The position numbers and the translations under genes are program-made. From the NCBI RefSeq assembly GCF_024506395.1, contig NZ_JANIBO010000001.1, forward strand, positions 1,178,001 through 1,242,000: 64,000 bases of DNA, in the 5' to 3' direction. Below the pieces are notes generated by a model. That model saw only the letters and a program-made list of their open reading frames with translations. It did no database searches and was not told where the DNA came from. Position 1 is the first letter of the stretch, and every line of letters begins with the position of its first letter. This document shows, piece by piece, positions 25,484 through 45,298 of this stretch. Origin of the DNA: Cetobacterium sp. NK01. GTDB lineage: Bacteria; Fusobacteriota; Fusobacteriia; Fusobacteriales; Fusobacteriaceae.

Positions 25484-26899
25484 TTAATAGATAATTTTAT
25501 CTCTCCCGCTATTTTTAGCAGTATATAATTTTTCATCAGCTTTAGATACTGATGAATAAAAAGATGTTCTATCCTTAATATCGGCGTGGAAAACTCCAAA
25601 AGAAGCTGTAATTTTATGATTTTCAATAAGGTCTAAATCTCTAATTAACTTTTGAAGAAAATAAACTTGATTTAATAACTCATCTTGGCCAATATCTCTA
25701 AAAATAATTAGAAACTCTTCACCACCCCATCTAAAAGGATAGATATTTTTATTGGCAATTAATTTTATACAGTTACTAACACCCTTTAAAACAAAATCTC
25801 CTTTATCATGTCCAAATTTATCGTTTATATTTTTAAAATGATCTATATCAAGAAGTACAACACCACAATTATTTATAGGAAACTTCATCTCTTCTTGTAA
25901 GTAATATCTATTGTAAAGAGCTGTCAAAGGTTCTCTTAAAAGTAGTTTGCTTTTAATCTTATTTAGCATTTTTAAAGAGTTTAACTCTTTATTTAACTTT
26001 TCTTTTTTATTGATATAAAAAACAGAGAAAAGAATAAATATAAGTAGAAAAATCTCCTTTAAATTTACTAAATGAAATAGATTCTCCTTTTCAATTAGGA
26101 TTTTATAGTTGGTTTTTTCCAAAGGAAAAACATAGTAATCTTTAATGTTTTCAACAACTTTAGCTGCATCTTTTTCAGTTGAGTAAATAACTTGAAATTC
26201 AGAGTCAATTATAGTGGTGTTTAAATTTAGAGTTCTTTTTAAACGCCTACTATTTTTAGCAAAAAAATCTCTGTTAAAATCAAAATACCAAAGAGATCTT
26301 AGCTTTTGGGCATTGTTAAAGTATTCATAGTTGGGAAATATAATTGTAAACATCTCTTTGTTATGAACTTTATCAACATATAGATTGTGAAGAGCAAACT
26401 CAGTGTTGTTTCTAGAGATAGTTCTTTTATCTTTGAAAACAGCTAAACTTAAAGCACTAGTTTTTAAAACATTGACCCAAGTTTGACTAAAGTCATCTGT
26501 ATATATAACTTTTCTATCGTGGGCAAAGGATCTAATGTTGTTGTGAACAATATATAAAAGAGAGTTATCAAGCTTAGAGTTAAGATTATCCTTGGCCTCT
26601 TTTAAGTTGTAAAAACTAAACTGATTAGGGTAAGAAACTATATTTTTAAAATATACTCCAGTTCCGTCAATATTAAAGTATGTCATATTCTCGTCAATTT
26701 TATATCCAGAAAAAGGTAACTCCTTTTTAGTTGCGTGTAGGAAATCAATTTCATTTCGTAACATTTGAATATCTCTATTAAAATGTATATTAAAAGCCTC
26801 AACTGCTGAATTAATCTCATTAAATAGATGACTTTTATTAATTGAAGTTGAAAGAAAAAATAGACCAACTAAAAAGATGTAAAATATTTTAAAAATCAT
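25484..26899 (-). CDS. Membrane-bound diguanylate cyclase (GGEEF)
   Basis: A 471-residue protein: an N-terminal membrane segment, an extracytoplasmic sensor of about 250 residues with no recognised domain, a second membrane helix near 280-297 and a C-terminal GGDEF domain. The active-site loop is intact: RWGGEEFLIIF (GGEEF at 392-396). LLDIDHFKNINDKFGHDKGD provides metal and substrate residues. It should make c-di-GMP from two GTP. The RxxD inhibitory site upstream is replaced by NKNI, so product inhibition at that site is unlikely. The start overlaps the preceding EAL gene stop by 4 bases, so it is translationally coupled as the last of three c-di-GMP genes. Confidence 0.93.
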   Translation of the reverse strand: MIFKIFYIFLVGLFFLSTSINKSHLFNEINSAVEAFNIHFNRDIQMLRNEIDFLHATKKELPFSGYKIDENMTYFNIDGTGVYFKNIVSYPNQFSFYNLKEAKDNLNSKLDNSLLYIVHNNIRSFAHDRKVIYTDDFSQTWVNVLKTSALSLAVFKDKRTISRNNTEFALHNLYVDKVHNKEMFTIIFPNYEYFNNAQKLRSLWYFDFNRDFFAKNSRRLKRTLNLNTTIIDSEFQVIYSTEKDAAKVVENIKDYYVFPLEKTNYKILIEKENLFHLVNLKEIFLLIFILFSVFYINKKEKLNKELNSLKMLNKIKSKLLLREPLTALYNRYYLQEEMKFPINNCGVVLLDIDHFKNINDKFGHDKGDFVLKGVSNCIKLIANKNIYPFRWGGEEFLIIFRDIGQDELLNQVYFLQKLIRDLDLIENHKITASFGVFHADIKDRTSFYSSVSKADEKLYTAKNSGRDKIIY

Positions 26900-29670
26900 A
26901 TTTTTTTGACCTCCATAGTAAATTCCTCTTTAGAGATTGGTTTACTAAAGTAGTAGCCCTGAACACAATCAACATTTAAAGATTTTAAGAAATCTAGTTG
27001 CTTTTTAGTTTCAATTCCTTCAGATACAATTTTAAAATTTAAATCTTTAATAAGGGTAGTTAGATTTTTATAGACAATCTCTCCCTTAGTGTTATTTATA
27101 TCTATTGAATCTAGAAGAGATTTATCAAATTTAACAATATCTATAGGTAAAAGAGGTAGTAGACCAGCGGTAGAGTGTCCAGCAGTAAAATCATCTAAAG
27201 ATATTTGAACTCCAAGGGTTTTCAAAGCTTTAAGCTTAGTTACTAAATCTTTCATATCTAAAACAAAAATTGATTCTGTAATCTCAACCTCTATATATTT
27301 TCCAGGAACTTTAAAATAACTAAGTAAACCGGCAATAATAGTTATAAGATCATCTCTTTTAAAAGTCTTCATAGATATATTAAAAGAGATTCTAAAATTA
27401 TCTGATGGAATGCTATTGCTTTCTATTAAAGATTTAATAAAAACAATACAGTCCTTTGCAATTTTATAATCAACTTTATGGATAAAGTTATATTTCTCAG
27501 CTATGGGAATAAACTCAAAAGGACCAATAAATCCAAGCTCAGGAGAGTTATATCTAGCAAGAGCTTCAGCTCCTATGAGTTTTTCATTTTTTAAGCAGAA
27601 TTTAGGTTGATACATAGGATAGATTCCTCTAATATCCTCTTTTAAAAGAGAGAGAATAGAAGATTCTCTATTCATTCTTTCAATAAATTTTTCATCAGCT
27701 ACTTTATAAAAACTAGTTTTATTTTTCTTAGTTTCAAGCATAGCTAAATCTGAATATTTAAAGCTAGTGGCTAAAGAACTTTTAGAATCCTTATAACTTA
27801 GCCCTAAATTAAATGTAATATTGTATTTTAATAGAGTAGGACAGTAATCTCTAAATCTCTTTAATTTATTTATTATGCTTTCAGAGTTCTCAAAAGAGAA
27901 ACCATAAAATTCATCTCCAGAGATTCTAAATATATATGAATCAATAAAGCTATTTTTTAAAAAGTTAGCAAACTCTTTTAAAATAACATCTCCAAACTCA
28001 TGTCCAAGGGAGTCGTTTATATTTTTAAAGTTATTTAAATCTATAACAAAAGTACATCCTGATAAGGTGTTTTGTTCACTGCAAAATTTATCGAATATAA
28101 ATCTATTAGGAAGCTCTGTTAAAGAGTCTTTAAGGAGGGTTTTTTTATTTAAACGCTCTCTATATAGATATGTTGAGACAGCTAAAATTATAAATATAAA
28201 TAAAACAGAGAAAAATACAAGAAGGTTTTGAATCTCTTTATTTTTTAAATATATAGCTTTATCTTCAAACTCTTTTTCTAAGCTAGAGATATCCTCTAAT
28301 TTTTGTAGATCAATAAAGTATTTAAAAGCTTTATCAATAACACCTCTTAAAATCTTATCCTCTTTATTAAACATTAAGTTTATAGGGATTGTTTCAAAGG
28401 GAATAATATTATATTTGTTAGAATCGAAATCCTCTTTATTTGTTACTAAAAGATTTCCAATTTTCCTAGAATCAAGAGCTTTAACCATATCGTTAAAATC
28501 ATCAAAAACAGTTATATTATCATCAACATCATATCTTCTTGCAATATGCTCCTCTACGCTATCTTTTAAAACTCCAATACTTCCAGAAGATGATGGGGAG
28601 TTATCTAAATTAATTACATAGACACCAATCTCATAGATTTTTTTAGAGAATATAAAGTCTTTGCTACGCTCTTTTGTTTTAGAAAGTAGCATAGTGTCAA
28701 ACTGTTTACTTCTTAAATTATCAGGAGTTTGACAAGTGTTAGTGGTAACATCAATAAATTGTATATTAAGTTTTTTTAAAACTTTAAAAATATTTGGCGC
28801 TATTCCTTTATAAAGCCCATCAATTTTAGATTTGTAAGAAACTAAAGAGTGAGTTCTATTCTCATAAGCCACCTTAATAGGAGGAAGAGTCTCTAAATAC
28901 TTTTTCTCCTCAGAGGTTAAAGATGTATAGAAGTTATTATAGGCTAAAGTTTTATTTAAAGAGTCTACCTCCTCTAAAAACACAGCTCTAAAATGTTTAT
29001 TTAAAGCCTCATTTACCAGAGGGATAAGAGCCTTATATCTATGAGAAAAAGCCATTGTAACTCCAGAGGAGTGACTTATTCTAACTCCATAATTAGGTTT
29101 ATAAAGAGCTGGGTTAGTTGTCAATATAAGCTTATTTTTATAGTTATTTAAATTATCAACAGGTATGGGATAACTGTATAGATCGTTGTTATCTAAAATA
29201 GCTTTTAAAATATTATTGTATGACCTCATATGTGGTGTGTATATAACCTTATTTTCTAGATCTCCCAAAGAGTTTATTTTTTCTTCTTGAGAAACAACAT
29301 AAAGCTCTTCAGAGAAAATACTATCACTAAAATCAAGGTGAGCATCATATATACTATTTTTAGGGATAAGAGCAACTCCATCAACCTCTTTATCTTCTAA
29401 AGTTTTTTCTAAATTTTTATAAGAGATTGTTTTAAAAGTAACATTTAGTTGCATGTAATCTTTAAAAAATCTTTTAACAGTTTCATTTAAAGATGGGACA
29501 TTTGGATAACTTAAATTATAAAAAGGTTCATCAAGTAAAGCAATGGTGATCTTTTCTTTTTTTAAGGTGTCAAGAATCTCTCTTTCTTTTAAGGTCTTAG
29601 GGATATAGACTTGGCTAAAGGCCGCATTAAAAAGCACAAAAAAAACAATGACAAACAATCGGTAAATCAT
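26896..29670 (-). CDS. Dual periplasmic-binding-domain GGDEF-EAL protein
   Basis: A 924-residue c-di-GMP enzyme. It has a signal peptide (1-19), two tandem amino-acid-binding-protein-like (SBP_bac_3) sensor units (about 35-250 and 262-470), a membrane helix (482-503), a GGDEF domain and an EAL domain. The GGDEF loop is SGDEF (584-588), so cyclase activity is doubtful. The EAL domain looks complete: EALARYN (702), FNISMKTF, EVEITES, LDDFTAGHS, VKFDKSL, VSEGIETKKQL and QGYYFSKP. The likely activity is therefore c-di-GMP hydrolysis gated by a periplasmic ligand. It overlaps the genes on both sides by 4 bases. Confidence 0.92.
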   Translation of the reverse strand: MIYRLFVIVFFVLFNAAFSQVYIPKTLKEREILDTLKKEKITIALLDEPFYNLSYPNVPSLNETVKRFFKDYMQLNVTFKTISYKNLEKTLEDKEVDGVALIPKNSIYDAHLDFSDSIFSEELYVVSQEEKINSLGDLENKVIYTPHMRSYNNILKAILDNNDLYSYPIPVDNLNNYKNKLILTTNPALYKPNYGVRISHSSGVTMAFSHRYKALIPLVNEALNKHFRAVFLEEVDSLNKTLAYNNFYTSLTSEEKKYLETLPPIKVAYENRTHSLVSYKSKIDGLYKGIAPNIFKVLKKLNIQFIDVTTNTCQTPDNLRSKQFDTMLLSKTKERSKDFIFSKKIYEIGVYVINLDNSPSSSGSIGVLKDSVEEHIARRYDVDDNITVFDDFNDMVKALDSRKIGNLLVTNKEDFDSNKYNIIPFETIPINLMFNKEDKILRGVIDKAFKYFIDLQKLEDISSLEKEFEDKAIYLKNKEIQNLLVFFSVLFIFIILAVSTYLYRERLNKKTLLKDSLTELPNRFIFDKFCSEQNTLSGCTFVIDLNNFKNINDSLGHEFGDVILKEFANFLKNSFIDSYIFRISGDEFYGFSFENSESIINKLKRFRDYCPTLLKYNITFNLGLSYKDSKSSLATSFKYSDLAMLETKKNKTSFYKVADEKFIERMNRESSILSLLKEDIRGIYPMYQPKFCLKNEKLIGAEALARYNSPELGFIGPFEFIPIAEKYNFIHKVDYKIAKDCIVFIKSLIESNSIPSDNFRISFNISMKTFKRDDLITIIAGLLSYFKVPGKYIEVEITESIFVLDMKDLVTKLKALKTLGVQISLDDFTAGHSTAGLLPLLPIDIVKFDKSLLDSIDINNTKGEIVYKNLTTLIKDLNFKIVSEGIETKKQLDFLKSLNVDCVQGYYFSKPISKEEFTMEVKKI

Positions 29671-31370
29671 TTTAAATCTCCTTCATTAATATCTTGATAT
29701 ATAATCATGTTTTTTCCAGAGCTTTTAGCTTTGTAAAGTCTTTTATCACATTCAACATATGTATTTTTGGTAGCCTTGGAAAAACCTCCACTTATAGTAA
29801 CGGTAATATGATGTTTCCAGTGGATATTCTCCACACTTTTACGAATATATTCACAGCTTTCCATGGCGAAAGCTTCGTTTAAATGAGTAAAGATAATGGC
29901 AAACTCCTCTCCTCCAACTCTATATATAGTTATCTCTTTATTCTCTATGGTTTTAAGAATTTTACCAATTGTAATTAAAACCTCATCACCAAAGTCATGT
30001 CCAAACTTATCATTTATTCTTTTAAAGTTATCAATATCAAAGAGTAACATAGAGTATTTCTCATTTTTAAGAGAGTTTATATCATTGTTAAAAGCCAATC
30101 TATTTCCAATATCAGTTAAAGCATCAATTTTAGCTTTTTTACTTAAATATTGAGATCTTTTATATGAAACTCCTAAAATAACAAATATAGCTAAAAACAA
30201 AAGAGCTATGTTTCTATAAAGTCTCTCATTTTCCCGAGCAAAACGCTCATGTTCTATATTTTCAATGAGATATAAACTAAAAACTTTGTTGTTAGTGAAG
30301 TTAATTTTATCAAGATAAGTTTCATAATCAATAGACAATTTTCTATATCTATCAAAATCTTTTATTTCAAAATAGTAATTAAAAAGTTGTTTAAAAGCTA
30401 GTTTTAAAAATACTATATCTCCATTGAGCTTTGCTTTTTCAATAAAATCTTCAAGAACAGTTGGTGAAAAATGTTGTGTATCATATCTTAAGTAGTAACC
30501 TTGTAAAGCAATCATATGAAAAGTTTTTAAATCTGTAAAATAAATTTTGGTTAAGTTATTTAATTCAAAATTAGCCTTATCAATAGAGGCTTTTACTATT
30601 TTAGGATTATTTAACTCAGTATATATTCGAGCATTAATAAGCTCTTTAAGGACAACTACATTTTTTTGATAATCAATAGGTTCACTATTTAAATTAGGAA
30701 TACTATCTAAAGCATCTAATGCGTTGTCATATTCTTTTAAAAAATAATAGTTTTCAGCTAAGTAAAGATAAAGGGATGTCTTTAATCTTAATATTTCAGG
30801 AAATTCTTTATCTTCTAAGTTAATTTCAGTTAAAATTTTAATAGAGGTTTCATATCCTCCAAGACTGCTGAAAATAGCTCCAAGGGCGATTTTAGCTCTA
30901 GCAATATCATACTGTGAATTCAATTCTTCAGCTAAATTGTAGTAATCCATAGTAATTTTAATGGCATTAGCAATATTTCCACTAGAAGCATCTAAGACTC
31001 TAAGTTTATTTAAGAGATATAATCTTGCCTCTGGGGATAAATTATCGCTATTTAAAAGTTGTTTTAAGATAAATGCCCCTAAATTACGTTCAGAGATTGA
31101 GTTTAAAAGAACTCGATTATTCTCTGCAATCTCTTTATATCTATGTGGATATTCACTCTTTGGAATCTTATTAAACTCATCTAGAACTTTTTTTTCTAAA
31201 GGAGTAAGATTATTAAAATCAACATAGTTAGTATATAGCGTAATTTTATTTAAAAAAGAGGCTTCTCTCTCTTTTTCTTTTTTATTTCTAATTACTAAGA
31301 AAAAAATTAAAGAAAAAGTCAGAAACGTCATAGATAAAATAACGAAAATATTGTAAGATTTTTTTTTCAT
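29667..31370 (-). CDS. Diguanylate cyclase with TPR-like extracytoplasmic region
   Basis: A 567-residue protein with a membrane helix at 7-27, a long helical segment that looks like tetratricopeptide repeats (about 100-350, e.g. LYLAENYYFLKEYDNALDALDS), a second membrane helix (385-402) and a GGDEF domain. The catalytic loop is YRVGGEEFAIIF (GGEEF at 486-490). LLFDIDNFKRINDKFGHDFGD is intact. The RxxD site is replaced by NKEI. It should synthesise c-di-GMP in response to an extracytoplasmic protein contact or ligand. It is the first of the three overlapping c-di-GMP genes. AAAAGGAG lies 12 bases upstream, a somewhat long spacing. Confidence 0.92.
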   Translation of the reverse strand: MKKKSYNIFVILSMTFLTFSLIFFLVIRNKKEKEREASFLNKITLYTNYVDFNNLTPLEKKVLDEFNKIPKSEYPHRYKEIAENNRVLLNSISERNLGAFILKQLLNSDNLSPEARLYLLNKLRVLDASSGNIANAIKITMDYYNLAEELNSQYDIARAKIALGAIFSSLGGYETSIKILTEINLEDKEFPEILRLKTSLYLYLAENYYFLKEYDNALDALDSIPNLNSEPIDYQKNVVVLKELINARIYTELNNPKIVKASIDKANFELNNLTKIYFTDLKTFHMIALQGYYLRYDTQHFSPTVLEDFIEKAKLNGDIVFLKLAFKQLFNYYFEIKDFDRYRKLSIDYETYLDKINFTNNKVFSLYLIENIEHERFARENERLYRNIALLFLAIFVILGVSYKRSQYLSKKAKIDALTDIGNRLAFNNDINSLKNEKYSMLLFDIDNFKRINDKFGHDFGDEVLITIGKILKTIENKEITIYRVGGEEFAIIFTHLNEAFAMESCEYIRKSVENIHWKHHITVTISGGFSKATKNTYVECDKRLYKAKSSGKNMIIYQDINEGDLK

Positions 31371-34910: not shown

Positions 34911-35927
34911 TTATGAAAGTAGTTGATAGATTCTCCCTAATAGGTAGTTTCTACAAATTAATAAGTTTAATTTAAACTTTAGTGGAGAGAATACTCTAAG
35001 CTCAACTCTTCTAATATTTTCTAAATCTAATTTTAAACTGTTAGTTCCCTTACGAGTAGTTACAAACCCCTTTATTCCAGCTCCTTTTAAAATAGCTATA
35101 AACTCTGGAGATCTATGTCCCCAAGGCCAACAGAAAAAGTTTGGTCTGTGTCCTGTATGCTCATCAATAAGGGAGATATTAGTATTTAAATCGTTTAAAA
35201 CTCTAGCTTTAGCATCATCTAAAGTTTCAAAAATAAGATCTTTATGTAGCTCATTATTTATAAACTCTTGAATAGCCTTTATATTGTTTTTACTCTCTTG
35301 AGATAGATTTTCATAGTAATTTTTAAATTTTTTAGCAGCTTCTATAGGAACAATAACTCCTGCGCTAGAAAACTCTCCTCTTTTACCAAAAATAGGAAAT
35401 CCAATTTCAGCTTTTCCTTGGTAAAGGTGCTGAATATCTCTATCTAAAAGATCATCACTAGTTACAACTCTATCAAAGGATGTATTTACAAAAATAGGCA
35501 TATGTCTATGAGAGTGCAGTTCAATATCAAAAACTCCAGATTCACTCATCTCCTCAATCTCTTTCCAGCTAAGGTATTTAAACTCTCTACTATTCTCATC
35601 TTCAATATAAGCTGTATTAAGATATAAAGTAGCTTTCATCTTGTACTTTTTTAATAGTGGAAAAGCGTTTTTATAGTTATCATAGTAACCATCATCAAAA
35701 GTTAGTGCCACACTATTTTTAGGTAACTTACCATTTTTTTCCATAGCTTCTAATATCTCTTTATTGGTCATTGTTCTCATATTTAAAAACCAGATATTTT
35801 TAAGATGTTCCTCAAACCAATGAGTGGGAACTCCAGCTTCTCCAATGTGATGATATAAAAACCATGGGTTTCCTTTTTTGTTGTAATACACACATGCAAT
35901 TAAAAAAACATATATTAAAAACTCCAT
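34911..35927 (-). CDS. Polysaccharide deacetylase (CE4/NodB-like)
   Basis: A 338-residue protein with a short N-terminal membrane anchor (EFLIYVFLIACVYY). Its NodB-like catalytic domain begins near residue 70. The metal and base motifs are ALTFDDGYYDNYKNAFPLL (Asp-Asp) and ELHSHRHMPI (His, His). CWPWGHRSPEF supplies the later active-site residue. It probably removes N-acetyl groups from an envelope polysaccharide or LPS sugar, on the periplasmic side if the anchor is right. AGGAGG precedes the ATG. It is first gene of a deacetylase, glycosyltransferase, response regulator, kinase operon. Confidence 0.88.
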   Translation of the reverse strand: MEFLIYVFLIACVYYNKKGNPWFLYHHIGEAGVPTHWFEEHLKNIWFLNMRTMTNKEILEAMEKNGKLPKNSVALTFDDGYYDNYKNAFPLLKKYKMKATLYLNTAYIEDENSREFKYLSWKEIEEMSESGVFDIELHSHRHMPIFVNTSFDRVVTSDDLLDRDIQHLYQGKAEIGFPIFGKRGEFSSAGVIVPIEAAKKFKNYYENLSQESKNNIKAIQEFINNELHKDLIFETLDDAKARVLNDLNTNISLIDEHTGHRPNFFCWPWGHRSPEFIAILKGAGIKGFVTTRKGTNSLKLDLENIRRVELRVFSPLKFKLNLLICRNYLLGRIYQLLS

Positions 35928-36059
35928 AAAAACCTCCTAAATACTAGAATCTAACTATTATACATTAAAAAAGTATATCATATTTTTTACAATTCTGCAT
36001 CTCTTTAGGTTCAAATAAGGGAGAAAGGTAGATAATTCTTTTTTTATTGAAAAAATATT

Positions 36060-36088
36060 TTGACAAATAATTTTTTTAATGTTATATT
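36060..36088 (+). promoter_or_regulatory. Consensus promoter of the MFS/SnoaL/SSS operon
   Basis: TTGACA (36060-36065), exactly 17 bp, then TATATT (36083-36088). The predicted start is near 36095, just before a perfect LacI-type operator. Confidence 0.88.
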
Positions 36089-36102
36089 ACTTTTGAAATT
36101 AA

Positions 36103-36120
36103 TTTGCAAGCGCTTGCAAA
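36103..36120. promoter_or_regulatory. LacI-family operator
   Basis: TTTGCAAGCGCTTGCAAA is a perfect 18-bp palindrome with the central CG typical of LacI/GalR-family operators. It lies at about +8 to +25 relative to the predicted start, where a bound repressor would block early transcription. The matching regulator is probably encoded at 40138. Confidence 0.9.
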
Positions 36121-36179
36121 AATATAAAATGTTTTAAAACAAAATATAAGTTACGGAAATAAACAAAAAAGGGGAGAAT

Positions 36180-37433
36180 ATGGAAAATATAAAGCATATG
36201 AGTGAACTATCATTACCAAAGCGTCTTTTGGCATATTTAGTAATTTTAGTAGGGTATTTCTTTTACTGTTATAACTTTGTAGTTATTGATTATGTAAGAC
36301 CATTTTTAGTTCAATATTATGGAATAACTTTAGGACAAACAGCACTATTTTACACTGCACAATCTATAGGAGCACTAATTGGAGCTTTAAGTTGTGCATG
36401 GTTCGCAGAAAATTTTGGAAGAAAGAAAGTTTTAATTTTAATAACTTTACTTAATGGAGGAGCTACTTTAGTAAATCTTTCAAGTAGATCATTTGAAACT
36501 TGGATGATTATGAGATTTATAATTGGAATCTCTTTAGGTGGATATTTTACAGTTGCAGTAACGGTTATGGTAGGACTATTTACAGCAAAAGTAAGAGCAA
36601 AAGTTACTGCATTTGCATCTAGTTTATTTTCAATAGCTTTAATAATTATGGGAGCTTACGGAGCTTTATTAGGGGAAAGCAATTGGGAGATGCTTATGGT
36701 AATTGGAGGACTTCCACCAGTAATTGCAGCTATAGCTATGATCTTTTTGGTACCAAGTGAAAAGAAATATATTCCTTTTGGTAGTGAAAAAGAGGGAGAT
36801 AATGAGACTAAAGCTGAAGAGGAAAAGAAAGGTAGCTGGAAAGAGATGTTCTCTGGAAAGTTAGCAAAGATATCTATAACGTGTATCTTATTATCTGGTT
36901 TAAATTTTATAGGTTACCAGTTCTTTAGTGGATTTGTTACAGTTTATTTAAGAGAAGTTAGAAACTTTGATGCAAAAACAATGGGAATATTATTCTCAGC
37001 AGCTTCTTCAGGATCTTTAGTAGGAGCTTATGTATGGGGATTTGTAGCAGATAAATTTGGAAGAAAAGTAAATGCCTTTGGATTTATACTGTCATCAATA
37101 ATGATAGGTCTGTATTTTGTGGCACCAAGTAATGTAACAATACTTTCAATTTGTGGATTTGTTTACGGAATTGGATTAGCTTCAAGTGCAATTTGGGGAG
37201 GATACTTTACAGAGCTATTCCCAAGACATTTAAAAACAATGGGAGCGTCACTATTCCACGGTGGAAGAATAATAGCGTTATTTGCACCAAGTATTGTTGT
37301 AGCAGTTAGAAATGCTACATCACTACAAACAGCAATGTGGGGAGCACCTATATTATTTACAATAGCAGCAATACTTTGGTTAACACTACCTGAAACTCTT
37401 GAAACAGGAGTTTTATATAAAAAAGAAAACTAA
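36180..37433 (+). CDS. MFS transporter
   Basis: A 417-residue, 12-segment major facilitator carrier. Motif A copies lie between helices 2-3 (WFAENFGRKKVLIL, near residue 80) and 8-9 (GFVADKFGRKVNAFG, near 300). A charged cytoplasmic loop (about 200-222) separates the halves. It resembles the aromatic-acid/sugar-acid carriers, but the substrate cannot be assigned. AAAGGGGAG precedes ATG. It is the first gene behind the LacI operator, with the SnoaL-like and SSS genes in the same direction. Confidence 0.9.
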   Translation: MENIKHMSELSLPKRLLAYLVILVGYFFYCYNFVVIDYVRPFLVQYYGITLGQTALFYTAQSIGALIGALSCAWFAENFGRKKVLILITLLNGGATLVNLSSRSFETWMIMRFIIGISLGGYFTVAVTVMVGLFTAKVRAKVTAFASSLFSIALIIMGAYGALLGESNWEMLMVIGGLPPVIAAIAMIFLVPSEKKYIPFGSEKEGDNETKAEEEKKGSWKEMFSGKLAKISITCILLSGLNFIGYQFFSGFVTVYLREVRNFDAKTMGILFSAASSGSLVGAYVWGFVADKFGRKVNAFGFILSSIMIGLYFVAPSNVTILSICGFVYGIGLASSAIWGGYFTELFPRHLKTMGASLFHGGRIIALFAPSIVVAVRNATSLQTAMWGAPILFTIAAILWLTLPETLETGVLYKKEN

Positions 37434-37465
37434 AAACTAAGAGATAAAAAGGAAAGGTAACGATT

Positions 37466-38482
37466 ATGTCTAAATATCAAGAAATAAAGAAATTAGTAAG
37501 AGAATATTTTGATGCAATGGAAAATGCAACACCAGAAACAGTTGAAGAGGTTATAAAGCAATACACAGGTGAAAACTACCAGTGGAGAGGAGTTTATCCT
37601 TTTAGAGAGCAAGATGGAGCAACTGCAACTGCAGAAGTTTTCTGGAAACCATTAATGACTTCAATAAAGCACCTTCAAAGAAGACAAGACGTTTTCATTG
37701 CTGGAACAAATGAAGTTGAAAGTGATGAGCAGTGGGTTATGTCAATGGGACACTTCATGGGATTATTTGATGAAGAGTATTTAGGAATTAGACCTACAGG
37801 AAAGATGATAAATTTAAGATATGCTGAGTTTTCATGCGTAGAAAATGGTAAAATAGTAAAAACTGGATTATTCGTTGATTTATTAGGATTAATGGATCAA
37901 GCTGGAGTTTATCCATTACCACCATCAACTGGAAAATATTTTGTATATCCAGGACCAAGAAATCACGATGGATTACTGTTTGAAGATGCTGCACCAGAAG
38001 AGGGGGTAAAAACTTTAGCTCTTGTTAATAAAATGGTTGAAGATCTATCAGCATTAAATAGAAGTGGAGCTATGGGAATAACTCCAGATGTATTAGAGCC
38101 ATCATGGTCTAAGAATATGATATGGTATGGACCTGCAGGAGTAGGAGCAAGCTATACTATACCAAGATATATAGCTCAGCATTCACTTCCATTTAGAAGT
38201 AGTCTAACAGATAAGGTGTTTAATGGACATGTATGTAGATTTGCTGAAGGAAACTTCTCTTGTTTCTTTGGATGGCCAAACTTATCTAACACACCAATTG
38301 GTGGATGGTTAGGATTGCCAGGCGGAAAAGTAAAAGCAGACATGCAAGTTGTAGATGTTTACTATAGAGATGGAGATAAACTATCTGAAAACTGGGTATT
38401 AATTGATATTCCATTCTGGTTAAAGCAACAAGGGTTAGATGTATTTGAAAGAACAGCAAATATTTTAAATCCGAAGTTTTAA
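37466..38482 (+). CDS. Double SnoaL/NTF2-like protein
   Basis: A 338-residue soluble protein made of two NTF2/SnoaL-like units. Unit 1 (about 5-145) starts VREYFDAMENATPETVEEVI and ends LRYAEFSCVENGKIVKTGLFVD. Unit 2 (about 190-325) starts LVNKMVEDLSALN and includes FNGHVCRFAEGNFSCFFGW and VVDVYYRDGDKLSENWVLIDI. The two units show the same helix-then-curved-sheet order. SnoaL-like folds act as small-molecule isomerases, dehydratases or cyclases, or only as binders. Function here is unknown; its place between two transporters suggests it modifies or binds the imported compound. RBS AAAGGAAAGG lies before ATG. Confidence 0.75.
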   Translation: MSKYQEIKKLVREYFDAMENATPETVEEVIKQYTGENYQWRGVYPFREQDGATATAEVFWKPLMTSIKHLQRRQDVFIAGTNEVESDEQWVMSMGHFMGLFDEEYLGIRPTGKMINLRYAEFSCVENGKIVKTGLFVDLLGLMDQAGVYPLPPSTGKYFVYPGPRNHDGLLFEDAAPEEGVKTLALVNKMVEDLSALNRSGAMGITPDVLEPSWSKNMIWYGPAGVGASYTIPRYIAQHSLPFRSSLTDKVFNGHVCRFAEGNFSCFFGWPNLSNTPIGGWLGLPGGKVKADMQVVDVYYRDGDKLSENWVLIDIPFWLKQQGLDVFERTANILNPKF

Positions 38483-38519
38483 TTAAAAATTTAAAAAATC
38501 ATATTTTAGATAATTTCAT

Positions 38520-38545
38520 TTAGCGCAGTTTTTTAACTGCGCTAA
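38520..38545 (+). other. Intergenic hairpin between the SnoaL-like and SSS genes
   Basis: TTAGCGCAGTT / AACTGCGCTAA is a perfect 11-bp stem with a TTTT loop. It is followed by CCCTATTTT rather than a T run, so it may be a weak terminator or an mRNA-stabilising element that sets different levels of the flanking genes. Confidence 0.6.
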
Positions 38546-38567
38546 CCCTATTTTAGAAGGAGGTTAG

Positions 38568-40097
38568 ATGACAAATTTAGATTGGGGAGTTTTAATATTT
38601 TATTTTATGTTTACAATAGGTTTAGGAGTTATTATAGGTAAAAAAACTACAGATATTTCAGAGTTTTTTTCAGGGGGAAGAGAGTTTAAATGGTGGGCTA
38701 TAGGGCTTTCTGTAATGGCTACTCAAATTAGTGCAATAACATTTATTGGTGCTCCAGGGTGGGCTTATGAACAAGGTTTAAAGCCACTTGTTTTAAATTT
38801 AAATATCCCAATAGTTATGTGGATATTAAGTGCAACATTTATCCCATTTTTTTATAATTTAGAGATAATCTCTGTTTATGAATATATTGAAAAAAGATTT
38901 GGAAAGAAAATGAGACTGTTATTAGTCTTTACATATATTATAAAAATGTTAGTTGTAGTTGGATCAATAGTTTATGTACCCTCTTTAATCCTTTCAAAGA
39001 TTACAGGGTTATCTATAAATATGACAATAGCTTTAATTGTTATAGTTTCAATATTTTATACAGTACTTGGAGGAATTCAAACTGTTATTTGGACAGATGT
39101 ATTTCAAATGTTAGCTCTTTGGATTGGAATTGTAATTTCAATTATAACGGTATTTAAAGTTACACCTTATAGTTTAAGTGAAATATTTCAAATGTCAAAA
39201 GAGAGTGGAAAGTTAATGTCTTTGGATTTTAATACTAACTTAAAAGCTGCAAATACTTTTTGGGCTGGACTTTTTGGAGGGGGAATACTACACATAGCTT
39301 ATTTTGGAGTAGATCAAACTCAGGTTCAAAGGGTATTAACAGCAAAATCTTTAGATAATACAAAATATTCACTTTGGTTTAGTGGAGTATTTTCAGTTAT
39401 ACAGATGTTTCTATTTTTAATAATAGGAGTTGTTCTTTTTGTTTTTTATAAAGGTCAAACATTTAATAATGCCAATGAGGTTTATATAAAATTTGCACTT
39501 GAAGAGATTCCAAAAGGGTACTTAGGAGTCATAATAGCGGCAGTTTTCGCAGCAACAATGAGTAGTATAGATTCGTCACTAAACTCAATGACAACAGTTT
39601 TCATGAAAGATATATATGAAGTTCATTTTCAAGAAAAAATAAAAACTTTATCAGAGATAAATGTAACTAGAATAATTACAGGTATTTTTGGGATAGTAAT
39701 AGCTTATTTTGCTTTTAACGTATCAGCATCAAATAGCTCTGTTTTAGAGATAATAAGTAAGTATGGATCATATCTATTAGGTGCCATGTTAGGAGTGTTT
39801 TCTCTTGGTATGTTCACAACAAAAGCAGATGAAAGAGGAGTTCTTATAGGATTTATACTTGGAATTTTAGGAACAGCTTTTATATCATATAGATTTAATA
39901 TTTTTTGGATGTGGAATAACTTAGTTGGATTTTTAATAACAATTGTAATAGGATATATTTTAAGTTTTAGTGATGATAACTACCAAGAAGAAAAAAGAAG
40001 ATATATAATGAAAAAGATGTATTTTGAAAAGAGTTCATCTATATTATTAATTTACTTTATTTTTTTAGTTCTAGTTCTTTACTTTTTAAATATATAG
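38568..40097 (+). CDS. Sodium:solute symporter (SSS family)
   Basis: A 509-residue SSS-family carrier, expected to import a sugar, sugar acid or similar solute with Na+. The family signature is present: SEFFSGGREFKWWAIGLSVMATQISAITFIGAPGWAYEQG, seen here as FFSGGREFKWWAIGLSVMA and TQISAITFIGAPGWAYEQG near residues 30-70. Further on AAVFAATMSSIDSSLNSM (near 320) matches the second Na+-site helix. About 13 membrane segments are visible. The strong AGAAGGAGG site is 6 bases before ATG. It forms one operon with the MFS and SnoaL-like genes upstream and the LacI gene downstream. Confidence 0.92.
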   Translation: MTNLDWGVLIFYFMFTIGLGVIIGKKTTDISEFFSGGREFKWWAIGLSVMATQISAITFIGAPGWAYEQGLKPLVLNLNIPIVMWILSATFIPFFYNLEIISVYEYIEKRFGKKMRLLLVFTYIIKMLVVVGSIVYVPSLILSKITGLSINMTIALIVIVSIFYTVLGGIQTVIWTDVFQMLALWIGIVISIITVFKVTPYSLSEIFQMSKESGKLMSLDFNTNLKAANTFWAGLFGGGILHIAYFGVDQTQVQRVLTAKSLDNTKYSLWFSGVFSVIQMFLFLIIGVVLFVFYKGQTFNNANEVYIKFALEEIPKGYLGVIIAAVFAATMSSIDSSLNSMTTVFMKDIYEVHFQEKIKTLSEINVTRIITGIFGIVIAYFAFNVSASNSSVLEIISKYGSYLLGAMLGVFSLGMFTTKADERGVLIGFILGILGTAFISYRFNIFWMWNNLVGFLITIVIGYILSFSDDNYQEEKRRYIMKKMYFEKSSSILLIYFIFLVLVLYFLNI

Positions 40098-40137
40098 AAC
40101 TATAATTTAAAGAAAAATAAGAGTAAGGTGTGTAAGT

Positions 40138-41127
40138 ATGACATTAAAAGATATAGCGAAAATTGTAGATTTAAGTGAATCTACAGTTTCAAGAGCATTA
40201 AATAATAATCCAAATATAGCAAAAAAAACAAGAGAACTTGTTATGAAAGTTGCAAAAGAGCATAACTTTGTAATAAATCCACATGCTAGAAGTTTAGCTA
40301 CTAAAAGAAGTCATCGTATTGGGATAATATTTCCAAATGATTTCTATGAATTTAATAAAAGAGATTTCTTTTCTCAACTTGAAAAGCATTTTTTACTAAA
40401 TTCAGAAAAATTTCAATATGAGATACTTATTATAAGAGCTAAATCTTTAGAAAAAACAATAAAAAGTGGAAATGTAGATGGTCTTATAATAGTTAATAGA
40501 GATATTAGTAAAAGTGATTTAGAGGTTTTAAAAAAATATAAAGTACCTCATACTTTTGTGGCTTATAAACCAACTGTTTTAGAGGAAAATACCTGTGTTT
40601 TTAAAAGTGATAACTTAGATTGTGGTTATAGTGTGGCTAAATTATTGCATGATCAAGGGTGTTATAATTTGCTGACAATAACATCTAATAATGAAAATTT
40701 AACAGATTACAAGGATAGAACTACAGGTTTTTATAATTATTTAGAAGAAAATGATTTGTTGAGATATGAAGTCCACGTTCATAAATGTGGTATGACTTTT
40801 GAAGATGGAAGAGATTTACTTTTAAATAATCTAGATTTTTTAAAAACATACGATGGTATTTATTGCCAACAAGATAAAGTTGCTTTAGGGATATTAAGTT
40901 TAATTGAAAAATATGATATTAAGATACCACAAGATTTGAAAATAGTAGGACATGATAATTTAGAGTTAATTGATTATTTTTACCCTAAGCTAACAACTAT
41001 TAAGGAAAATTTTGAGGTAATAACTTTAGAGGCTTTAAAATACCTAATTGATATTATAGAGGAAAAAGAGGAAAAAAAGGTACAATCAGTATTTGAAAGT
41101 ATAATAATTAAAAGAGAAACAACGTAA
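40138..41127 (+). CDS. LacI-family transcriptional regulator
   Basis: A 329-residue LacI/GalR repressor: the N-terminal helix-turn-helix and hinge (MTLKDIAKIVDLSESTVSRALNN ... NPHARSLATKRSHRIGII) are followed by a periplasmic-binding-protein-like sensor (about 60-325). It ends the MFS/SnoaL/SSS operon and probably binds the palindrome at 36103-36120, giving autoregulation. The inducer is presumably the transported compound or its product. AAGGTGTG precedes ATG. Confidence 0.93.
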   Translation: MTLKDIAKIVDLSESTVSRALNNNPNIAKKTRELVMKVAKEHNFVINPHARSLATKRSHRIGIIFPNDFYEFNKRDFFSQLEKHFLLNSEKFQYEILIIRAKSLEKTIKSGNVDGLIIVNRDISKSDLEVLKKYKVPHTFVAYKPTVLEENTCVFKSDNLDCGYSVAKLLHDQGCYNLLTITSNNENLTDYKDRTTGFYNYLEENDLLRYEVHVHKCGMTFEDGRDLLLNNLDFLKTYDGIYCQQDKVALGILSLIEKYDIKIPQDLKIVGHDNLELIDYFYPKLTTIKENFEVITLEALKYLIDIIEEKEEKKVQSVFESIIIKRETT

Positions 41128-41176
41128 TTTTTTATATTTTTATTTAAAAAATGTATTCATAACGCACTTTTTAATG

Positions 41177-41182
41177 TATAAT
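41177..41182 (+). promoter_or_regulatory. -10 box of the AAA-ATPase gene
   Basis: TATAAT, preceded by TG, lies 38 bases before the start codon. No good -35 is seen at the expected distance. It sits among repeated AATGTAT elements. Confidence 0.5.
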
Positions 41183-41201
41183 AATGTATTGTAAATACAT
41201 T
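41183..41201. repeat. Inverted repeat at the AAA-ATPase promoter
   Basis: AATGTATT-GTA-AATACATT is a perfect 8-bp inverted repeat directly after the -10 box. Further AATGTAT copies begin at about 41150 and 41173 in the same orientation. It is a plausible operator; no dedicated regulator gene is adjacent. Confidence 0.6.
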
Positions 41202-41220
41202 TTTTAATAGGAGTGAAGAT

Positions 41221-42513
41221 ATGGAAAGAAAAATGAAAACCAATCTTATAAATTGGAAGAATAGTAATAATCGTAAACCTTTAATTATAGATGGAGCTAG
41301 ACAAGTTGGGAAAACATATATAGCTTTATCTTTTGGAAAAGAGTTTTATAAAAATAGTGTTTACTTTAATTTTGAAAATTCCACTGAACTTCAAAAAATT
41401 TTTGATAAAGATTTAGAACCTGAAAGAATAATAAAAGAGCTTGCAATATTTGTAGGACAAACAATTTTAAAAGAGGATACCCTAATAATTTTTGATGAAA
41501 TTCAAGCTTGTGAAAGAGCTTTAACATCACTAAAATACTTCTGTGAAAATGAACCTAATTATCATATAATAGCAGCAGGAAGTTTATTAGGAGTTGCTTT
41601 AAATAGAGAAAAATATTCATTTCCAGTGGGAAAAGTAGATATGATAAAAATGTTTCCATTAGACTTTGAAGAATTTTTATGGGCTTTAGATAGAAAGGAT
41701 TTATCTGAAGCTATAAAAGATCACTATGAAAGCAATGAGATGTTTAATCTTCATGAAATAGCAATGGATTATTATAAAAAATATTTGGTTATTGGAGGAA
41801 TGCCTAGAGTTATCTTAGATTACTTAGAAACAGATGACTTTAACTTTGTTTTGGCATCTCAAAAAACAATAAATGATTCCTATATAGCTGATATGGCAAA
41901 ATATGCTACTCCAATGGAGACAATAAAAATTTTAAACGCATTTAATACAATTCCCAGTCAATTAGCTAAGGAAAATAAAAAATTTCAATATAAACTTATA
42001 AAAACAGGAGCTAGAGCTCATGAATATGAAGTGCCTATAGAATGGTTAATTTCATCTGGTATAGTTAATAGATGTACTAAGATTAATGAAGGGAAACTTC
42101 CATTAAAAGCTTACTCTGAACCATCGTCGTTTAAATTATATTTAGGAGATACAGGACTGTTATGTTCAAAGTTAGAGATTCCAGCTAATCTTATAATAAG
42201 TGGAAATAGTAAGTTCAATGAATTTAAAGGAGCTTTAACAGAAAACTATGTTTGTGTTGCTTTATCATCAAGTAACTATAGCTTATACTATTTAGAAAGA
42301 AATCAAAATATGGAGATAGATTTTGTAATTCAAGATAAAGAAGGAAATATTATTCCTATTGAAGTTAAAGCTAGTGAAAATGTAAGAGCAAACAGTTTAA
42401 ATAGTTTTATAAAAAAATATAATCCAGTATATTCTATAAGAGTTTCTGGTAAAAATTTTGGATTTGAAAATAATATAAAAAGTGTTCCTTTATACGCAGC
42501 ATTTTGTATATAA
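41221..42513 (+). CDS. AAA-family ATPase with DUF4143
   Basis: A 430-residue protein of the AAA_14/DUF4143 type common in anaerobes. Walker A is GARQVGKT (25-32) and Walker B is LIIFDEIQ (88-95). The DUF4143 half (about 190-400) ends with an Archaeal-Holliday-junction-resolvase-like patch (YLERNQNMEIDFVIQD ... IPIEVKAS), i.e. E-x(n)-D-x(n)-ExK, typical of these proteins. Cellular function in this family is unknown; defence, plasmid or toxin-related roles have been suggested only from context. AGGAG precedes ATG. It is transcribed alone with a strong terminator. Confidence 0.88.
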   Translation: MERKMKTNLINWKNSNNRKPLIIDGARQVGKTYIALSFGKEFYKNSVYFNFENSTELQKIFDKDLEPERIIKELAIFVGQTILKEDTLIIFDEIQACERALTSLKYFCENEPNYHIIAAGSLLGVALNREKYSFPVGKVDMIKMFPLDFEEFLWALDRKDLSEAIKDHYESNEMFNLHEIAMDYYKKYLVIGGMPRVILDYLETDDFNFVLASQKTINDSYIADMAKYATPMETIKILNAFNTIPSQLAKENKKFQYKLIKTGARAHEYEVPIEWLISSGIVNRCTKINEGKLPLKAYSEPSSFKLYLGDTGLLCSKLEIPANLIISGNSKFNEFKGALTENYVCVALSSSNYSLYYLERNQNMEIDFVIQDKEGNIIPIEVKASENVRANSLNSFIKKYNPVYSIRVSGKNFGFENNIKSVPLYAAFCI

Positions 42514-42580: not shown

Positions 42581-45298
42581 TTAAAATTTATATCCAACAC
42601 CTAATGCTAGGTAGTTGTTATCTCTTTTTCCAAACTCTTTTCCAATTTCAAAAGTAACTTTAAAGTCTTTAATCTCTGTAGAGATTCCAGTATTTATAAC
42701 TAGACTTTCATTTTCTAAATTGTCACTATCTAAACTGTATTTAACTTTATCTCTTAAAAGAGACATGTTTTGTTTTTTGTTCAAATCTCCTAATTCATAA
42801 GAGTAGATTACATTTGAATATAGATTTACAAATTCAAAGTTTTTACCAACTTTAAATCCAACACTTGGTAAAATAGAGAAATAGCTTTCATCCTGAACTG
42901 TTACCCCTAACTCTCCAGCATTTTTCTCACTAAACTTTTCATATTTTCCATAACCTAAATTTAACCCAAGAGTAGGTTTGATATATAACGATTCTCCATA
43001 AACTTTACTAATCTCTCCGTTAGCTCCTAAAGTATATGAGTTATACTTAGCTTTGGCTTTTTTATCAAAGTTATCAATCTCCCTATTAGTTTCATGGAAA
43101 TTATACTCTCCATTTAGTCCAAGTTTTATATCAAAACTATCAGTTGTTAATTTTTTATAAACTCCTGTGTGAATAGATTGAATAGATCCTTTTGATCCTT
43201 CGTTATATTTTAAGTTACTATTTTCATATCCAATAGTAGCATAGATATCATTTTCGAACTTTTTAGTTCCTACAAATCCCTCTGATGTAGCTTTATATCC
43301 AGAGATCTCCCCTTTATCTTTAACTGATGATTTATCACCAAAGAAGTTAAAATTATAACTAAAATCATTTAGATTTTCTATTAACTTTCCATCCTCTTTA
43401 ATAAATCTATCTTGAATATCAAATATCTGTCTAGGAAGGTTAGCATAAAGATCTCCTGATAGATCTTTTACAACTTTTTTAACCTCATTAACATCATTAG
43501 ATTTAGATATTTTATCAACAACTAACTTTTCATCATTAGATAAAATTTTATCATCCTCATCTAAATACTCATCAAAAGATTCATTTAATGATTCAAACTC
43601 TTTAACTTCATATATTTCTTTAATAGTAGTTTCATTTCTAGAAACTATCATATCAACATTTCCAGATCTATTAAATCTAAGATTAGAGTTATAAAAAAGT
43701 GATACTGGTTTAGAATTTTCAGCTTTAGTTACTTCAATTTTTGGAGCAGAGAAAACATCTTTATAAGTGATCTCTTTCTTAGTGCTATCAATAAGATCCT
43801 TAGATGCAACTACATCTCCATCTATTCTTAAACTTCTTTTAGCTCTAACTCTAGAGATGTCTCCAGAAGCTTCTTTTCCAACAACAAATTTACCTTTATC
43901 CTCTGTTTTTATCTCAATTTTATCTTCTCCAAGTATTTTACCTTTGTTAACATATGTACCATTGTTAGAAGCCCAAATAGCTATTTTATGTGGGTTTGAA
44001 TCTCCAAATATAATCTCTCCTTCGTTGACAATAGTACTAATTTCATATTTGTCAGAGTTTGCTCCAACGTTTCCAGCGTACATACCAATAGATTCTCCAT
44101 TTAGTATAATTTTACCTTTGTTTATAACTTTGCTTCCATTTGTAGCACTCATAGCAAAAGCATTTTGTCCGTTGATTTTAATAGTACCAGTTGTTTCGTT
44201 TATTCCAACAGCACCTTCAGTTACGCTGATTCCGTGAGAATATGGTCCAGTAACGTCAATTGTACCTTCATTTATAACTTTAATATTTTCACCGTCACCT
44301 CTCATACCATTGCTGTCTTCACCTTCAGTTTTAATAGTTCCCTTATTAGTAAGAGTTATATTTTTACCATTGGCAACCATACCAGCACTGTGTCTTCCGC
44401 TTACATTGATATTTTTATTATTTAATAACTCATCTGTCACTGTAGAATCTTTTGGAGTAGTTATACTCATACCTTGAATATACATAGATGAAACAGCTGT
44501 TGGATTTAAACGGTGGAAGTCATTATAATGAATATCTATATATCCATCGTTAACTAAAGTAGCTTTTTCTTCAACGTCATCCTTTTCCATATATTTGATA
44601 GCTTCCATACCAATAAGGCTAGCAAAGTATAAGCCCTCTTTATTTTCAATACCATTTAATACAATTTCACCAGTATTTATAGCATTAATCTCTTCTCCAT
44701 GATATGAACGATTAGACATTGCACTAATAGCAGAACCAGTTCCATTTAAACTACCGATGTTATGTATTTTTCCACCATAGATTCCTTTCATTAAACTCAT
44801 ATCTGTATTGGGATCTATTTGAGTACCATTTATAGTTCCGTGGTTAACTCCAAGGGAGTTTTTTCCCACTGATAATACTCCAGTGGCATACTTAGCATTG
44901 ATGTTAATAACTCCATTAAGCTCATTTGTAGCTATTTTACCATCAAGAGCTACAACTCCGACTTCTCCCTCGCTATCAAGAGAGATATTTTTATCATTTT
45001 TAGTTGGAGGCTCAGGCATTGGAGGAAAGTCTTCAATTTGTGAGTTGTCTTCACTTTCTAAGATGTTATCTTGTTCAGAACTATCAACATGCTCTACATT
45101 TTCTTTTGAAGTGGGTACAATTATAGGTAAAATAGGAGCAGCAATGTCAGTTGTAGGTTTAGAGACATTTATAGTTGGCTTTGATGGCGTAGCTGTCGGG
45201 GAGTAGCTACTACCACCTCCACCTCCTCCACTGCCGCATGCTGTGACAAGTGAAGCTAATATTCCCAAAAATAGATATTTTTTATTATAAATTTTCAT
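42581..45298 (-). CDS. Lipoprotein-type autotransporter
   Basis: A 905-residue surface protein. The signal peptide ends with a lipobox (LASLVTAC, lipidated Cys21), followed by a glycine run and a Pro/Thr/Ser-rich linker (to about 105). Residues about 110-560 form a beta-helix-type passenger with repeated turns such as TNKGTIKTEGEDS, INEGTIDVTG-like and NKGKIILNGES. A helical linker near 590-650 leads to a C-terminal autotransporter barrel (last 260 or so residues) ending YLALGVGYKF. The passenger should be displayed outside the cell. No protease triad is visible, so adhesion is more likely. It follows the omptin gene by 20 bases in one operon. Confidence 0.9.
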   Translation of the reverse strand: MKIYNKKYLFLGILASLVTACGSGGGGGGSSYSPTATPSKPTINVSKPTTDIAAPILPIIVPTSKENVEHVDSSEQDNILESEDNSQIEDFPPMPEPPTKNDKNISLDSEGEVGVVALDGKIATNELNGVININAKYATGVLSVGKNSLGVNHGTINGTQIDPNTDMSLMKGIYGGKIHNIGSLNGTGSAISAMSNRSYHGEEINAINTGEIVLNGIENKEGLYFASLIGMEAIKYMEKDDVEEKATLVNDGYIDIHYNDFHRLNPTAVSSMYIQGMSITTPKDSTVTDELLNNKNINVSGRHSAGMVANGKNITLTNKGTIKTEGEDSNGMRGDGENIKVINEGTIDVTGPYSHGISVTEGAVGINETTGTIKINGQNAFAMSATNGSKVINKGKIILNGESIGMYAGNVGANSDKYEISTIVNEGEIIFGDSNPHKIAIWASNNGTYVNKGKILGEDKIEIKTEDKGKFVVGKEASGDISRVRAKRSLRIDGDVVASKDLIDSTKKEITYKDVFSAPKIEVTKAENSKPVSLFYNSNLRFNRSGNVDMIVSRNETTIKEIYEVKEFESLNESFDEYLDEDDKILSNDEKLVVDKISKSNDVNEVKKVVKDLSGDLYANLPRQIFDIQDRFIKEDGKLIENLNDFSYNFNFFGDKSSVKDKGEISGYKATSEGFVGTKKFENDIYATIGYENSNLKYNEGSKGSIQSIHTGVYKKLTTDSFDIKLGLNGEYNFHETNREIDNFDKKAKAKYNSYTLGANGEISKVYGESLYIKPTLGLNLGYGKYEKFSEKNAGELGVTVQDESYFSILPSVGFKVGKNFEFVNLYSNVIYSYELGDLNKKQNMSLLRDKVKYSLDSDNLENESLVINTGISTEIKDFKVTFEIGKEFGKRDNNYLALGVGYKF

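Follow-up and report, generated by a model that had tools for sequence, protein, structure and literature searches.

A 64,000-nucleotide stretch of the genome of Cetobacterium sp. NK01 (contig NZ_JANIBO010000001.1, positions 1,178,001 to 1,242,000 of the forward strand; hereafter the window) carries at window positions 36060-41127 an operon of four genes, which encode an MFS carrier, a double-SnoaL protein, a sodium:solute symporter (SSS) family carrier and a LacI-family repressor. Our analysis supports a self-contained, autoregulated operon whose predicted operator adjoins the gene cluster of its presumed repressor, and points to the double-SnoaL protein as most likely an enzyme. We consider the chances about even that the operon serves the inducible import of an amino-acid-bearing, methylated substrate on which this enzyme acts; the identification of that substrate as a mycosporine-like amino acid (MAA) is no part of this estimate.

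Operon layout and predicted LacI control

An open reading frame (ORF) check of the window placed all four genes head to tail on the plus strand. The first encodes the MFS carrier (36180-37433, 417 aa; Pfam MFS_1, 4.5e-41). It is followed by the genes for the double-SnoaL protein with its two NTF2 domains (37466-38482, 338 aa; Pfam SnoaL, 1.3e-12), the SSS/SSF carrier (38568-40097, 509 aa; Pfam SSF, 3e-48) and the LacI-family repressor (40138-41127, 329 aa; Pfam LacI, 7.5e-14, and Peripla_BP_3, 4.6e-19). ORFs and Pfam thereby bear out an initial annotation of this DNA with respect to gene order, families, strand, the presence of two unrelated carriers (MFS_1 and SSF) and the position of the repressor gene at the end of the operon. 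In NCBIfam the MFS protein came closest to the aromatic acid/H+ symport subfamily, with a score under the cut-off, and gave weak matches to drug exporters; neither it nor the LacI protein had a match above cut-off, and the SnoaL protein had none. Relatives of the SSS carrier include SMVT, NIS, SiaT-type and SGLT proteins; SSS proteins generally import their substrates together with Na+. A search of viral contigs gave no relatives.

The control region consists of a promoter-like sequence on the plus strand (36060-36088; TTGACA-17-TATATT with TG before the -10 element) and a LacI-type operator, the perfect 18-bp palindrome TTTGCAAGCGCTTGCAAA (36103-36120). The promoter scores 11/12, the top match of the region; as a class, promoter-like sites are not commoner than in shuffled sequence. 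The 16-bp core of the operator is the sole match in the window when up to three mismatches are allowed (0.13 expected) and has one perfect copy in the whole 3.1-Mb genome. Two other Cetobacterium species have an identical operator and a near-identical promoter at the same position, and each of their genomes likewise contains one perfect operator copy. Promoter and operator, kept in place and unique per genome, therefore represent more than chance, and the initial annotation was right both about the promoter and about a perfect operator just after the start site. Next in rank among the operator-like sites of this genome is C1:1429484-1429499, which has two mismatches; a site with the same two differences occurs in genome G010. 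The window-type operator was not found in the examined upstream regions of Propionigenium, genome G040 and Vibrio, and those of Caloramator, locus L053 and Epulopiscium contain other palindromes, so that the operator sequence is specific to Cetobacterium. The operon contains its own repressor gene and has a palindromic operator at its promoter, as is typical of LacI-regulated catabolic operons. With one copy per genome, this footprint supports autoregulation of the operon, with no other strong target of the repressor.

Two further plus-strand elements were noted. A hairpin of 11 pairs lies between the SnoaL and SSS genes (38520-38545); it is common to three Cetobacterium species (one loop base varies) and unique in each genome, and Rfam matched nothing within 35900-41300. 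Because a U-run does not directly follow it on the 3' side, we infer an mRNA-processing or differential-expression element. The second, 3' of lacI (41183-41205), was read from the sequence as a terminator-like, AT-rich stem with a T-run, too AT-rich for the hairpin scan.

The double-SnoaL protein and its relatives

We collected 41 related loci via the SnoaL protein and further loci from genome searches. Neighbouring genes were assigned from mechanical ORFs, and orthologues were sought with exact peptide seeds in one scan, so that absence from a species is weak evidence. The SnoaL protein shares 67-80% identity with its counterparts in Vibrionaceae, Psychromonas, Epulopiscium, Caloramator, Propionigenium, Spirochaetota, Anaerolineae, Marinomonas and Leucothrix, 46% with that of Ruegeria conchae and 38% with that of Halobellus. 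Identities of its partners to the window proteins are lower (MFS 34-64%, SSS 32-43%, LacI 22-45%), and some loci have ABC or TRAP importers in place of the MFS, SSS and LacI partners. The SnoaL protein is tightly held while the carriers change, and is therefore the functional core of the system.

The Pfam SnoaL match is above cut-off and covers the first domain only; the second NTF2 domain emerged from the AlphaFold2 model, which shows two such domains (mean predicted local distance difference test score, pLDDT, 91.5). A phmmer search against the PDB returned weak single-domain matches and nothing stronger. Foldseek found as best PDB neighbours the double-SnoaL epoxide hydrolases Lsd19 and MonB, together with single-domain SnoaL proteins. 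Asp138 and Asp314 occupy the same late position in domains 1 and 2, respectively, and align with an Asp of related solved SnoaL-type chains. Both are invariant, as are Arg118, Tyr221, His239, Asp297, Asn309, Trp310 and Gln321, even in paralogues that are ∼30% identical. Since it forms a conserved core with an NTF2 fold and invariant residues, the protein is a likely enzyme. The polyketide-biosynthesis setting of SnoaL cyclases proper is absent: all loci seen adjoin importers and catabolic genes. The earlier description of the operon as having no obvious catabolic enzyme is not supported in that form, in view of the likely SnoaL enzyme and of homologous clusters that do carry catabolic enzymes.

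Conserved co-occurrence of the four genes, which the initial annotation had suggested looking for, was found in other genera and phyla. The window order MFS-SnoaL-SSS-LacI recurs in further Cetobacterium species; in Propionigenium and one more Fusobacteriaceae genome these four genes follow a second SnoaL-type protein (f19). Variants were seen in Caloramator and in two genomes sampled from the phylum of the Spirochaetia locus. Epulopiscium has MFS-SSS-SnoaL, and the Vibrionaceae layout is divergent, with SSS and a serine lyase reading away from MFS-SnoaL-(porin)-LacI. Within the window's own genus, 3 of the 12 searched genomes contain the cassette. The MFS proteins form two clades, and the window protein groups with those of Epulopiscium and Vibrionaceae, apart from other Fusobacteria (100/100 support); the cassette has therefore moved horizontally. 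Tight orthologues of the SnoaL protein, adjoining importers, are scattered over Fusobacteria, Vibrionaceae, Bacillota, Spirochaetota and Chloroflexota, and phylum sampling of the last three added few new loci. Sampling of the order to which the Roseicyclus locus belongs revealed members of this SnoaL family, at paralogue-level scores, in 151 of 342 genomes. Most of the source organisms come from marine, algal, fish-gut or saline settings. Taken together, the inducible operon, its two carriers and the co-occurrence of its genes partly support the initial view of an uncharacterised uptake/modification system.

Catabolic neighbours and candidate substrates

The strongest link to amino acids is one to serine. 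An L-serine ammonia-lyase gene (TIGR00720, 652 bits) immediately follows the SSS gene, in the same orientation, at 19 of the 23 Vibrionaceae/Psychromonas loci. Two M19 membrane dipeptidases share an operon with a SnoaL paralogue in one Bacillota and one Spirochaetia genome, both of which also have an orthologue. In one Fusobacteriaceae relative, SHMT (serine hydroxymethyltransferase), glycine-cleavage genes and lipA are divergent from the operon at a distance of ∼320 bp, and on a Vibrio pelagius plasmid (L142) the cluster adjoins sarcosine oxidase and purU. On this plasmid an ABC-type cluster replaces the MFS/SSS cassette; in the tree, its SnoaL protein nonetheless groups with those of Vibrionaceae.

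Homologous clusters with catabolic neighbours occur in Rhodobacterales, Marinomonas, Chloroflexota and Halobellus. By the initial annotation, its view would be refuted by homologous operons for which both a catabolic enzyme and the substrate are known; those found here supply the enzymes but no known substrate. On plasmids of Ruegeria and Paracoccus and in genomes of Rhodobacterales, several SnoaL proteins are accompanied by an HpsN-like dehydrogenase, a short-chain dehydrogenase/reductase (SDR), a cupin, an alpha/beta hydrolase, a methionine-synthase-II-like protein, an RraA-type aldolase and either a PF04909 or an SMP-30 gene. The HisD-family protein of these large clusters scores 385 bits to HpsN versus 237 to histidinol dehydrogenase, which suggests a CH2OH group on the substrate; for the cupin, no PDB relative was found. 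The RraA-type protein matches the LigK-type aldolase model weakly, below cut-off. HpcH/HpaI aldolases are present in Chloroflexota and Bacillota relatives, and the ABC binding proteins of larger clusters are akin to sugar and sulfoquinovosyl-glycerol binders. Methionine-synthase-II-like proteins recur in Rhodobacterales, one Chloroflexota genome and Halobellus; an island in Bacillota MES16 encodes a corrinoid protein, RACo and MtaA-type proteins; and Halobellus has a homologue of the O-demethylase DesA (470 bits, under that model's cut-off of 800). The recurrence of these unrelated methyl-handling families suggests that the substrate carries an O- or N-methyl group.

The large island on the Bacillota MES16 contig (L079, L080) also holds a double-SnoaL orthologue and a paralogue, SSS carriers, two M19 dipeptidases, an aldolase and beta-oxidation-like genes. 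The haloarchaeal Halobellus limi plasmid (L144) encodes four double-SnoaL proteins and a short one, the DesA-like homologue, a catechol-2,3-dioxygenase-like protein and an ABC importer.

Judged by these neighbours, the best-supported substrate class would be a small molecule of algal or cyanobacterial origin that bears an amino acid, an O- or N-methyl group and a CH2OH group. Because an amino acid, a methoxy group and CH2OH on a ring match MAAs, these are the best single candidate, to which we assign about one third of the probability; about a fifth to a quarter falls to some other amino-acid conjugate and the rest to unrelated substrates. MAAs have a hydroxymethyl ring with a methoxy group at C-2 (PMC9789016), and Vibrio harveyi is reported to strip serine or threonine from the MAAs shinorine and porphyra-334 (Dunlap and Shick, as cited in PMC3083659).

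The operon might work as follows. With substrate absent, the LacI-type repressor would block transcription from its single operator until an imported ligand releases it, as its family and the operator suggest. The MFS and SSS carriers would transport the substrate, and possibly a product as well, in predicted directions; exchange through one inward and one outward carrier, as raised in the initial annotation, may take place. The double-SnoaL protein, to judge from its fold and invariant residues, could carry out acid/base catalysis on a small molecule that is cyclic and enolisable. The fermentative host would probably free the amino acid for general metabolism and use the remainder further or export it; relatives that combine the same enzyme with larger clusters would degrade the remainder. 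An amino-acid scavenger that discards or exports the ring would explain the pairing of two carriers with one enzyme. On paper, the ring could be degraded by conversion of CH2OH to COOH, demethylation and oxidative enediol ring opening, giving 4-carboxy-4-hydroxy-2-oxoadipate, a LigK-type aldolase substrate. More tentatively, the SnoaL protein may release amino acids from MAAs, and the window operon may be a minimal MAA-scavenging cassette that spread horizontally in fish-gut and marine lineages. The Rhodobacterales clusters may degrade the ring by the same paper route, with the HpsN-like enzyme oxidising CH2OH and the RraA-type aldolase acting last.

Several observations weigh against this proposal. 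By Pfam, the window operon has no amino-acid, methyl or dehydrogenase gene, such links coming from other taxa, and in this fermentative host it contains no ring-degrading genes. The M19, glycine-cleavage, sarcosine-oxidase and corrinoid links were each seen at one or two loci, where the genes may lie together by chance. The V. harveyi activity was reported without genes, and it is we who infer its tie to those of the operon. Binding proteins that resemble sugar binders also fit a polyol or sugar acid, and the marine, algal, fish-gut and saline sources fit MAAs, yet hold many other compounds.

A polyol, sugar acid or sulfonate-like substrate without an amino acid, which the SnoaL protein isomerises or dehydrates and housekeeping enzymes then finish, accommodates the LacI control, the kinship of the SSS carrier to SGLT, the sugar- and sulfoquinovosyl-glycerol-type binding proteins, the HpsN-like dehydrogenase, and the HpcH/HpaI aldolases with the L-fuconolactonase-like and SMP-30 genes. 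It is nevertheless doubtful: the serine lyase, M19 dipeptidases, glycine cleavage, sarcosine oxidase and methyl-handling genes would be left unexplained, and no desulfonating enzyme was seen in the loci. For this last reason we also dropped an assignment to HpsN-type catabolism of the sulfonate 2,3-dihydroxypropane-1-sulfonate (DHPS); the annotated and scanned neighbours included no sulfo-lyase, and the HpsN-like protein occurs in the large clusters only.

A substrate from the syringate/gallate group of methoxylated aromatic acids, with the SnoaL protein as a tautomerase of ring-cleavage products, has a precedent in the SnoaL-domain protein MgaD, a proposed tautomerase of syringate catabolism in Pseudomonas sp. 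NGC7 (PMC12314914). The aromatic acid symporters nearest to the MFS carrier, the DesA-like and extradiol-dioxygenase-like genes of Halobellus and the RraA/LigK-like aldolase of Rhodobacterales point the same way. However, MgaD belongs to another SnoaL-like family (pfam13577), the operon of the host and its relatives lacks ring-cleaving genes, and neither the HpsN-like enzyme nor the serine lyase would be accounted for, making such a substrate unlikely. By ORFs and Pfam, the window operon contains no ring-cleaving dioxygenase or O-demethylase; genes of this kind were seen in the Halobellus cluster only. A detoxification unit, in which a toxic compound is altered by the SnoaL protein and then expelled through the MFS carrier, could draw on the weak drug-exporter matches, but is highly improbable given that SSS proteins are importers and that the homologous clusters rely on degradative enzymes and on importers of the ABC binding-protein or TRAP type.

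Once the substrate is established, a catabolic trait widespread among marine microbes could be assigned. Should it prove to be MAAs, the operon would provide genes for a biotransformation long reported in marine and gut bacteria, with a bearing on marine nitrogen cycling and on production of the antioxidant 4-deoxygadusol.

Elsewhere in the window, three consecutive minus-strand genes (25484-31370) look by sequence like cyclic di-GMP signalling proteins with GGDEF, EAL and sensor parts, and a 905-aa minus-strand protein (42581-45298) resembles an autotransporter with an N-terminal lipoprotein signal.

Comparison with known systems

The polyether epoxide hydrolases Lsd19 and MonB, the top Foldseek matches, share with the window protein a tandem of two SnoaL/NTF2 domains. 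They differ from it in sequence (∼11% identity) and in domain arrangement, as reflected in low full-length TM-scores, and are biosynthetic enzymes outside importer operons, whereas the window protein is encoded inside one. The nearest published functional parallel that we found is MgaD, a SnoaL-like protein in a catabolic cluster for methoxylated rings that ends in 4-carboxy-4-hydroxy-2-oxoadipate (PMC12314914). In contrast to the window operon, that system has a SnoaL-like protein of another Pfam family, another regulator, an aromatic substrate and no MFS/SSS cassette. HpsN, the (R)-DHPS (sulfopropanediol) 3-dehydrogenase, is the closest solved relative of the HisD-family enzyme of the large clusters; unlike HpsN systems, these clusters lack sulfonate-specific genes, and the window operon lacks an HpsN-like enzyme. 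Removal of serine or threonine from MAAs by V. harveyi would fit the serine-lyase-linked Vibrio operon; in PMC3083659 this conversion is described without genes. In the literature covered, which leaves most subscription journals outside, we found no description of the operon, the SnoaL/HisD cluster, MAA-degrading genes or the function of this SnoaL family. The parts are thus of known kinds, namely LacI control, MFS and SSS carriers and the SnoaL fold; what appears to be new, though it may be described elsewhere, is an arrangement in which two carriers flank a SnoaL protein that is the only soluble enzyme, and the breadth over which its family is distributed.

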